A DNA stretch of 64,000 nucleotides from Macrocystis pyrifera. Taxonomy: Eukaryota; Sar; Phaeophyceae; Laminariales; Laminariaceae. A program made the translations under genes and the position numbers. The first letter of the stretch is position 1. Every line of letters starts with the position of its first letter. Under the pieces are notes generated by a model. The model did no database searches. It was not told where the DNA came from and saw nothing but the letters and a program-made list of their open reading frames with translations. The stretch spans positions 9,236,528 through 9,300,527 of the forward strand of contig JASSKH010000020.1 in NCBI GenBank assembly GCA_031763025.1, read 5' to 3'. This document shows, in pieces, positions 4,226 through 58,146 of this stretch.

Positions 4226-5354
4226 TCAGCATCGTAGGATTTTTTTAGCTGCTGGTATTTGTACTGTTTCCAACTGTTTTACGAGTTTCGTGTTTCCTTC
4301 CCATACTTCTCCTGCATATTCTAGCTTTGGTACTATCAAATTCATCAAGATACATCTCTTAACCCTAGTGTCAAGGGGCGAGTATGTTAGGATCGCATCC
4401 ATCTTGCCTACTTGTGCCTTACCCTTTCCTATTACTTTTGCTATATGTGTATCCCAAGAGCAGTCCTTTGAGATCTCTACGCTAAGGTATGTATACTGGT
4501 CTACGACGGGCATTTCATCTTCTCCCCACTTCCAACTGAAATTTGCCGGGTTTACTTTATCTTCGTTACAAACAGCTACTGCGCAGTTCTTGACGTTCGC
4601 CGTCACCCTCCATTTCCTGGTGTATTCTAGCGCCTTCTCTGTTTGTTTCTGCAATCCTTCGGGATTTCCCGATATCCCCACGAAGTCATCCGCAAACATC
4701 AATCCCGACACCGTATCTTCCCCCACCGTGACCCTCTGCCTTGCTGCCTCGACTGCTACTATCAGGTCGTTAATATACATCTTGAAAAAGTTAGGTGACA
4801 ACGTATATCCCTGTGCAACTCCTTGTAAAATATCAACATACTTCGCTATTTCCCCGTCCAGCATCACAGCACTTCTCGCACATTCCATCATATTTTTCAT
4901 CATTCTCCACATATTTCTTCTGACTCCTATTTCCCACAGTTTTTTCCACAATCCATTTCTCCATACTGTGTCGTAGGCTTTCTGCACATCTAGAAAGAAA
5001 CAGTACGTTGTTAGTCCCGCGTCTTTCCTACCTTGAATAATCTTACCTAAGGTGTACACATGGTCTACGCAGATTTGGCCTAAACCCTGCTTGTCCTTCG
5101 CTTATTTTGTCTTCCTTCTCCATCATCGTTCCCATTCTATCGTTCAAAATCTTACAAAATGTTTTGCCTACTGTGCTTAGTAGCGTTATCCCTCTATAGT
5201 TCCCCGGGTCAGCCTTATCTCCTTTCTTGAATAAATTTACTACTACTCCTTCCCTCCACCACCTAGGTGCGTACTCGTTTTTCCATATCCAGTTGTACAA
5301 CATAACCATCATGGTAAGCATTTCTTCTGCCCCGTACTTCATAAATTCATTCAC
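4226..5354 (-). pseudogene. LINE reverse transcriptase
   Basis: The first frame (5043-5354) has FKKGDKADPGNYRGITLLST and ISEGQAGFRPN, typical RT0-RT2 motifs of non-LTR elements. A frame change near 5050 leads into 4226-5059, which carries FLDVQKAYDTVW (motif A Asp), GVAQGYTLSPNFFKMYINDL (motif B) and MFADDFVGIS (motif C, the catalytic Asp pair). The thumb follows to about 4226. All catalytic Asp residues survive, so the frameshift rather than point loss inactivates it. It would copy LINE RNA at the nicked target. Confidence 0.9.
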
Positions 5355-13645: not shown

Positions 13646-13862
13646 TATTACGGTAAGGGTCCATAGTAAGTAGGACCAAATATAGTTATTATTGGGGTTC
13701 ATATTTAACGAGACCAAAATTTGTTAATAAAAATACGTGAATATATAGGTTTTTATGTATACCACAGGTCCTATTAACTATGGACCCCCGTACTAGTAAA
13801 AATAGGTAAATATGTAGGCTTGTGTCCAACGTAGGTCCTATTTTCTATGTTCCCGCGTAATA
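13646..13862 (-). mobile_element. Family A MITE (outer copy) carrying a nested copy
   Basis: The outer ends are TATTACGGTAAGGGTCCATA and CTATGTTCCCGCGTAATA. The outer interior is interrupted after CCAAATATAGTTA and resumes at TAGTAAAAATAGGTAAATAT, with TA present on both sides of the insert. Comparison with intact copies (GTTAGTAAAAATAGG) shows that TA was duplicated. Confidence 0.9.
13689..13793 (-). mobile_element. Family A MITE nested in another family A MITE
   Basis: The inner copy starts TTATTGGGGTTCATATTTAA and ends CTATGGACCCCCGTAC. It has the same orientation as its host. The empty site is known from the other copies, so it defines the insertion target as the TA of GTTAGTAAAA. Confidence 0.9.
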
Positions 13863-23743: not shown

Positions 23744-23851
23744 AATACGGAACACCATAGTAACTAGGACCAAATATCGTTAGTAAAAATAGGTAAATAT
23801 ATAGGTTTTTATGTGTATCATAGGTTCTATTAACTATCGTCCCCCGTAATA
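23744..23851 (-). mobile_element. Family A MITE
   Basis: AATACGGAACACCATAGTAA...TAACTATCGTCCCCCGTAAT. The uninterrupted interior GTTAGTAAAAATAGGTAAAT gives the empty-site reference for the nested insertions. Confidence 0.85.
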
Positions 23852-28169: not shown

Positions 28170-28282
28170 TATTACGGGGGACCATAGTAAACAGGACCAA
28201 ATATTCTTAGTAAAAATAAGTAAACACATAGGTTTTTGTGTGTACCGTAGGTCCTATTTACCAGGTATGGTCCCCCATAATA
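28170..28282 (-). mobile_element. Family A MITE with CCAGGTA in the right arm
   Basis: TATTACGGGGGACCATAGTA...ATGGTCCCCCATAATA. The arm normally TATTTACTATGG reads TATTTACCAGGTATGG, giving TACCAGGTA at 28259-28267. Confidence 0.9.
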
Positions 28283-28560
28283 GCAGGTGAACTATGGATG
28301 ATACGATAAAAGAGAAAATTGGTTTCGTGTGGGACGCGAGGTGGAGAAAGTGTATGGATACATACCTTAAGATATAGGTGGGGCCGATTACGGCTGGGTA
28401 CAAACACGCACGCGTGCATCCCGCCTCGTTAAGTGGCGCGTTTGCTGCCAAGTCGCCCGAACTGCCGAGGAGGGACAGACCAGGCGAAAACCTTCTCAAA
28501 ACAATGAAAGTGCGGATAAATGGTAAATACTCGGACGATGATATGGTTTGATATTCCTAC
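28283..28560. other. No gene recognised
   Basis: Unique-looking DNA without coding or repeat signal. Confidence 0.4.
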
Positions 28561-29765: not shown

Positions 29766-30098
29766 GGCTCCAAACCTGTTGTCTATTGTACGTAGTTTTA
29801 TACTAAGGAGTTTGGTGCGACCGTACGTACGTTCAAGCGTGTTGCTTGAATTTTAGCCCTCCGAGATCAAGGTCGCATCTCGATCGCTATCGTTAGTGCC
29901 AGTGAGAAAAGGACCCCCGTCCTACTTGAAGGACATCCAAAGAGGAAGCTACCATGCGTCAGTTGGGTTGTGTACTTTTTCGCCGACTCCGCTTGCCTTT
30001 GTTCGAGCTCAATTGTTAGGTTAGGGTGTGGATTCGTTGTTGGCGCTTGGCGCTTGTTTGACGCCCAGAACAACTACTTACTGATCCTTCTTCATACG
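29766..30098. other. No gene recognised
   Basis: Unique-looking DNA. A short minus frame (29867-30073) has no motif. Confidence 0.35.
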
Positions 30099-30211
30099 AT
30101 TGCGGGGGTCCATAGTTAACGGGACCAAATTTTGTTATTAATAGTAAAACTAGGTAAATATATAGGTTTTTATGTATACCATAAGTCCTATTAACTATGG
30201 GCCCCCGTACT
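30098..30211 (-). mobile_element. Family A MITE carrying a TATTAATA footprint
   Basis: TTGCGGGGGTCCATAGTTAA ... TAACTATGGGCCCCCGTACTA. The interior, GTTAGTAAAAATAGG in intact copies, reads GTTATTAATAGTAAAACTAG here, with TATTAATA at 30136-30143. The extra 6 bp sit exactly at the TA where two other copies carry a full nested element. Confidence 0.95.
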
Positions 30212-30243
30212 AGTTCGACGTATTGACGTTGCGTAAACGCTAC

Positions 30244-30352
30244 TACTACGGGGGTCCATAGTTAACGGGACTAAATTTTGTTAGTAAAAATAGTTAAATA
30301 TACAGATTTTTATGTATGCCATAGGTCTTATTAACTATGGACCCCCGTAATA
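30244..30352 (-). mobile_element. Family A MITE
   Basis: TACTACGGGGGTCCATAGTT...AACTATGGACCCCCGTAATA, 33 bp from the preceding copy in the same orientation. The interior is uninterrupted (TTGTTAGTAAAAATAG). Confidence 0.95.
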
Positions 30353-57927: not shown

Positions 57928-58146
57928 TATTACGGGGGACCATAGTAGACAGGACCAAATATTGCTATTACGGGGATCCATAGTTAATAGGACCTATGGA
58001 ACACACAAAACCTATATATTTACCTGTTTTTACTAACAAAATTTGGTCCCATTAACTATGGACCCCCGTAGTAGTAAAAAGGGTAAATCTCGTACATGGG
58101 GTTTTAATGTATTCATAGGTCCTATTAACTATGGACCCCCGTAATA
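57928..58146 (-). mobile_element. Family A MITE (outer copy) carrying a nested copy
   Basis: Outer ends TATTACGGGGGACCATAGTA and CTATGGACCCCCGTAATA. The outer interior breaks after CCAAATATTGCTA and resumes at TAGTAAAAAGGGTAAAT. The TA of GTTAGTAAAA is duplicated around the insert, the same target as in the 13.65 kb pair. Confidence 0.95.
57968..58071 (+). mobile_element. Family A MITE nested in another, opposite orientation
   Basis: TTACGGGGATCCATAGTTAA...AACTATGGACCCCCGTAG, interior in plus orientation while its host is reversed. This orientation differs from the 13.69 kb pair, so the two nestings are independent events at the same TA. Confidence 0.95.

Follow-up and report, generated by a model that had tools for sequence, protein, structure and literature searches.

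A MITE copy with a probable excision footprint in the window

The window, by which we mean the whole 64,000-nucleotide stretch of Macrocystis pyrifera DNA under analysis, harbours a family of 105-bp palindromic elements with inverted ends (TA[TTACGGGGG...CCCCCGTAA]TA), for which a profile search of the window (E <= 1e-8) returned 35 non-overlapping hits. One copy is longer than its relatives by a short insertion at an internal TA, which we termed site A. The features concerned are:

30100..30210, + strand: MITE copy with footprint, 111 bp (105-bp family length plus 6)
30136..30137, + strand: site A, the internal target TA (GTTA|GT), a hotspot of self-nested insertion (394 full inserts genome-wide)
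30138..30143, + strand: footprint TTAATA, 6 bp, turning TA into TATTAATA, i.e. TTAA plus one duplicated TA
30246..30350, + strand: neighbouring family copy, 105 bp, with empty site A (GTTAGTAAAA)
23745..23849, + strand: family copy, 105 bp, with exact empty site A (GTTAGTAAAAATAGG at 23779) and decayed left end

The sequence GTTATTAATAGTAAAA was found exactly at 30134-30149, and with up to two mismatches the window held two matches vs. 0.11 expected. This stretch reads GTTA-TTAATA-GTAAAA, whereas family relatives read GTTA-GTAAAA. The 6-bp insertion that an initial annotation had described within a family copy is real, and the coordinates given there were correct to within a few bases, with the exception of one comparison copy. 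Of the two copies cited as intact, the one at 23779 matched exactly, while the one placed at 30290 actually lies at 30280 and carries T in place of the final G. The left end of the 30100-30210 copy is decayed (flank GA, not TA; start TTGC, not TTAC); its final base is C, and the right flanking TA is located at 30211-30212.

Assignment of the family

Short length, terminal inverted repeats, a high copy number and no room for a transposase characterize the family as a MITE. A search of the genome (537,376,219 bases, 223 contigs) yielded 2297 first-look candidates. The intact empty site-A motif occurred 17 times in a 182,210-bp sample, corresponding to about 50,000 genome-wide by extrapolation from what is a non-random sample, namely the window and the surroundings of loci picked because they hold family copies, omitting 12 of 13 segmental-repeat loci (see below), locus L001, loci shorter than 2900 bases and the central positions 1300-1750 of the others. 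This sample contained one TATTAATA, that of the window, and, by a strict pattern, no full nested copies. As in Tc1/mariner elements, the TA target was duplicated, and two nested cases in the window were found without use of a junction pattern; short staggered footprints between two TAs (TTA/TAA, TTAA, TTWAA and TTATAA) were present at site A. From 145 TA-flanked ends out of 183, a set that includes nested copies, a rough target preference of TAC|TA was obtained.

Two other superfamilies were considered and rejected. A piggyBac-like element would target TTAA and excise seamlessly, but the nested hosts in the window read GTTAGT and GCTAGT, with the insert between two TAs. In PIF/Harbinger MITEs (Tourist), a 3-bp TWA target is directly duplicated on either side. 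Here, relative to the known host, TA alone was duplicated; the terminal TTA and TAA are inverted and part of the element. The end base varies (TA-N-TACGGG), but a coupling sequence brought along from a previous insertion site is not our favoured explanation: T occupied position N in 159 of the 183 ends, and nearly all of the 100 nested copies listed began with TTAC (by eye). The remaining end-base variation looks like mutation. These end-base (183 ends) and inverted-repeat analyses omitted 12 of the 13 segmental-repeat loci as well as L001, L055 and L058.

Regarding a source of transposase, no DDE_3 match with E <= 0.001 was obtained in a genome search. DDE_1 (pogo/jerky-like) gave 39 matches, including G000:C202:8066650-8067204, several of them with open frames of >330 aa; within the 3.5-kb stretches at the three of 39 matches examined, no family ends were present. 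A Pfam search of 10 of the 22 listed open reading frames of the window identified one reverse transcriptase, an open frame at 4226-5059 on the minus strand with domain PF00078 (E 7.2e-16).

Full nested copies at site A

Two hosts in the window carry a complete family member at the same TA:

13648..13860, + strand: host family copy with 13689-13793 nested in site A (host GTTA|TAGT)
13689..13793, + strand: full nested family copy, 105 bp, decayed left end TTATTGGGG, in site A of host 13648-13860
57930..58144, + strand: host family copy with 57968-58071 nested in site A (GCTA|GT; host GCTA|TAGT)
57968..58071, - strand: full nested family copy, 104 bp, inverted, in site A of host 57930-58144

Both nested copies, which had been proposed to occupy the identical TA, were confirmed. 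Genome-wide, 394 full family inserts were counted at site A (backwards-pattern control: 0) with a pattern that itself requires both junctions and a TA on either side, so that TA duplication is built into this count. In all 15 inserts fetched of the 394, family-like host sequence was present on both sides, the host at locus L046 being diverged (by eye). The fetched inserts measured 105-111 bp, lay in both orientations and belonged to more than one subfamily. The nested family copy at G000:C141:779725-779854 has its own site A turned into TATTAATA, making it a scarred insert within a host, and shows that a scar could also travel with an element.

Spectrum of footprints at site A

The exact sequence TTGTTATTAATAGTAAAA, in which TA at site A has become TATTAATA, occurred 294 times genome-wide, while the reversed-pattern control gave none. 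Inspection of 72 of these 294 places, the window's own included, revealed 57 distinct contexts. Thirteen of the 30 fetched TATTAATA loci turned out to be one segmental repeat, 3 kb or more in length (L009-L018, L035, L037, L038), about 96-98% identical and located mainly on small contigs. This repeat duplicated one TATTAATA MITE copy, so some TATTAATA copies share a single event.

A slightly stricter pattern for TA-bounded insertions of 0-14 nt at site A gave 572 matches vs. 40 for the control, and all 20 places with variant insertions that were fetched fitted the family profile. Insertions of 4 nt made up 56 of the 100 matches listed, and 45 of these 56 were TTAA. The 3-nt class comprised 102 cases (control 4); typed from the listing of 100 of these, it contained TAA 14, TTA 13, CAG 31 and CTG 21 times. 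Among 24 cases of 5 nt (control 1), we found TTAAA nine and TTTAA seven times. The 2-nt class held 15 cases genome-wide (control 3), with TT 0, AA 3, CA 2 and CG 5. The 6-nt footprint TTATAA appeared once among the 100 matches listed, which also held the double scar TATTAATATTAATA and composites such as TACAGTATTAATA and TACAGTACAGTA. Double and composite scars show that site A has been used serially.

TACAGTA and TACTGTA at site A, including the case at L019:96-208, resemble what Sleeping Beauty-type excision of another family would leave. This CAG/CTG pair, 52 of the 100 listed 3-nt cases, corresponds to the Sleeping Beauty footprint and is the residue expected from a Sleeping Beauty-like family with CAG...CTG ends. 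In the fetched DNA, no TA-flanked inverted repeats of a source family with CAG ends were recognised, the output being swamped by simple CTA repeats.

The composition of the classes bears on how the insertions arose. Replication slippage, the alternative that the initial annotation had named against itself, or a chance AT-rich insertion, could account for certain additional site-A insertions that resemble slippage or internal duplication (1-nt G or T; GTAAAAA). TTAATA, however, is no duplication of GTTAGT, from which slippage can yield neither this insertion nor the matching 3-, 5- and 6-nt classes, and the backwards-pattern control was zero. TTAA accounted for 45 of the 56 listed 4-nt insertions; with A and T each set to 0.35 as null, the TTWAA proportion (16 of 24) had p = 1.5e-26 and the TTA/TAA proportion (27 of 100 listed) p = 6e-8. 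Slippage or a chance AT-rich insertion, already disfavoured as a general cause, is exceedingly improbable.

The same data discriminate between cuts of different length. According to the initial annotation, Tc1 excision leaves TACATGTA, and a Tc1-type event retaining two terminal nucleotides from each side was proposed there for the 30136 site. Of that proposal, the connection between element ends (TTAC...GTAA between TA), target and footprint is supported, but the 2-nt cut is disfavoured (among the 15 insertions of 2 nt, TT 0 and AA 3). The same excision history with a transposase cutting 2 nt inside the ends would leave four end nucleotides and thus explain why TATTAATA has exactly TT and AA between two TAs; a TT overhang with one mismatched overlap could yield TTA or TAA as well, and the three AA cases, which fall outside a 3-nt model, would be accommodated. 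Yet its simplest products, TATTTA and TAAATA, were near-absent instead of predominant, and TTWAA and TTATAA would be impossible. The presence of the TTA/TAA, TTAA, TTWAA and TTATAA classes together with the near-absence of TT and AA in the 2-nt class fits a 3-nt overhang, and we regard a 2-nt cut as unlikely.

Independence of the scarred copies

Another explanation is that TATTAATA marks one inherited subfamily, amplified from a master copy with a 6-bp insertion and possibly spread by gene conversion, in which case most copies would not be independent excisions. The segmental repeat with 13 of the 30 fetched loci fits this idea, as does the nested copy C141:779725 with its own TATTAATA. Furthermore, scarred copies lean towards A in column 11, a subfamily column (40 of 51 vs. 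45 of 101 other copies, the comparison set including loci picked for the other subfamily). In a tree of 152 copies, 51 of them with TATTAATA and with the motif region masked, the scar label nevertheless required 41 changes vs. 42.7 ± 2.6 after shuffling, and 317 of 1000 shuffles were at or below the observed number. A less biased set of 105 copies, which omitted L002-L008 and L039-L053, gave 36 changes vs. 35.4 shuffled (637 of 1000). Within the 152-copy set, pairs of scarred copies had a mean identity of 0.815, mixed pairs of scarred and other copies one of 0.818, and pairs of other copies one of 0.834. Six subfamily columns, each omitted from its own tree, did cluster strongly; none of 300 shuffles matched the clustering observed. 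The trees rest on about 90 columns and omit 12 of the 13 segmental-repeat loci, L001 (the window copy), L055, L058, hits scoring below 45 bits and rows containing over 25 gaps; one further analysis omitted 12 of the 13 segmental-repeat loci, L001 and hits with fewer than 85 profile positions.

As the label was unclustered while the subfamily columns were clustered, the scarred copies do not form a clade. The 57 distinct contexts among 72 places, the 3-, 5- and 6-nt and composite footprints sharing site A, and the presence of TATTAATA at a second TA (74 at site B, see below) likewise speak against a single inherited subfamily, which we judge quite improbable, gene conversion being harder to exclude than a single origin of TATTAATA. 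These comparisons show the recurrence of TATTAATA in apparently unrelated copies rather than its inheritance. It had been conceded at the outset that scars sharing diagnostic substitutions and lacking full-insert relatives would undermine an excision origin; what we observed were 394 full inserts and no clade signal. For the single copy at 30100-30210, the history of an excised insert is supported statistically, on the strength of sequence comparison.

Proposed mechanism of excision

We propose, with a probability of roughly 0.87, that the copy at 30100-30210 served as host for a MITE of the same family, which entered GTTA|GT and was later excised, leaving 3-nt overhangs that were resolved by end joining. 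According to this model, another copy of the TA-inserting, Tc1/mariner-like family would jump into GTTA|GT of the 30100-30210 copy. A transposase acting in trans would then cleave 3 nt into the element at both ends (TTA...TAA) on the non-transferred strand, comparable to Sleeping Beauty and mariner, so that two 3'-TTA overhangs would be left on the flanking DNA. Full overlap of the overhangs, with a T:T mismatch, would give TTA or TAA; the perfectly paired TA:TA register would give TTAA, the commonest product and the one seen in the 30100-30210 copy; a one-base overlap with an A:A mismatch would give TTAAA or TTTAA; and overhangs placed end to end would give TTATAA. In each case, the break would be sealed by end joining.

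Comparison with a second TA and further families

A second internal TA, site B (CCATA|GT), held 18 full copies (control 0), counted with a pattern that again requires a TA on either side, and the five fetched were all in family-like hosts; TATTAATA was counted there 74 times by pattern (control 0). In the 182,210-bp sample, we counted 17 empty site-A motifs and 77 empty site-B motifs. Per empty site, site A thus exceeded site B about 99-fold in full copies and about 18-fold in TATTAATA, ratios that rest on a slightly looser pattern for the 294 and on the small count of 17. The ratio of TATTAATA to full copies was 294:394 at site A and 74:18 at site B, so the number of scars is not simply proportional to that of the full copies still in place.

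Short TA-bounded insertions at site B numbered 1784 (control 231), and TATTAATA accounted for three of the 100 matches listed. The insertions of footprint type most frequent in the same 100 were TACATA (17), TACGTA (11), TACAGTA (10) and TACTGTA (5) (by eye; some in repeated segments). The 2-nt forms TACATA and TACGTA, rare at site A, may have been left by still another family. The element's other TAs carried TACCWGGTA, TACTGGTA, TACCAGTA and similar insertions, in the window at 1760-1883 and 28173-28285 and elsewhere at L019 1439, L024 1456, L036 1429, L041, L043, L045, L080, L087, L102 and L104. Several of these TACCWGGTA-type insertions are at the TA of AAATATA|GG, and they were likely left behind by a further family that prefers a TA of its own. 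From these sequence patterns, different families seem to favour different TAs.

As full copies were about 100 times commoner per empty site at A than at B, it is conceivable, albeit doubtful, that GTTA|GT acts as a self-landing pad where new jumps are parked harmlessly in old copies, turn over by repeated excision and record end joining.

Relation to known systems and significance

For Sleeping Beauty and mariner, a 3-nt staggered cut and a footprint equal to the overhang have been described (PMC7827188). The kelp family resembles these systems in its TA target and in footprints that fit 3-nt 3' overhangs (PMC7827188). It differs in its ends, TTA...TAA, for which the self-complementary TA:TA register is favoured and 4 nt (TTAA), not 3, result. 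For Ectocarpus, 17 Mariner-Tc1 families with almost 12,000 copies, mostly non-autonomous, have been reported (PMC12477816), and the kelp MITE resembles TcMar-N1_Ec32 in being a brown-algal non-autonomous element of TcMar type. The two differ in length (105 bp in kelp vs. 217 bp), and the kelp family has tens of thousands of copies, as extrapolated from the 182-kb sample. Repeated gain and loss at one site is documented for a Stowaway MITE in the Triticeae beta-amylase intron (PMC1925063). That case concerns one intron across species, whereas the kelp case concerns one TA that lies within the element itself and recurs over hundreds of paralogous hosts in one genome. Background is found in accounts of Hsmar2 (PMC3770610), rice (PMC4423477) and ZB (PMC7913693).

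The giant kelp genome paper gives a haploid female gametophyte as the source of the assembly, and its main text does not contain the word MITE (PMC10498591). A search by title and the start of the abstract, with subscription papers mostly outside its reach, found no literature on excision footprints in brown algae and none joining 'footprint', 'excision' and 'TATTAATA'. Already known are the footprints of Tc1/mariner elements, TcMar MITEs in brown algae (PMC12477816) and a Stowaway site with repeated gain and loss (PMC1925063). What is added here is scale, combined with a known host sequence: a single genome offers hundreds of readings of one self-nesting TA.

Studies of genomes usually infer excision footprints in small numbers. 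In the present case, site A was seen empty, filled (394) and scarred (294 TATTAATA and other registers) in one genome, and with hundreds of such cases, overhang length, repair register and target preference become readable from sequence alone. The genome thus retains a record of how excision breaks were repaired. If the self-landing reading of GTTA|GT is true, site A would at the same time record, across a brown-algal genome, the registers in which ends were joined.
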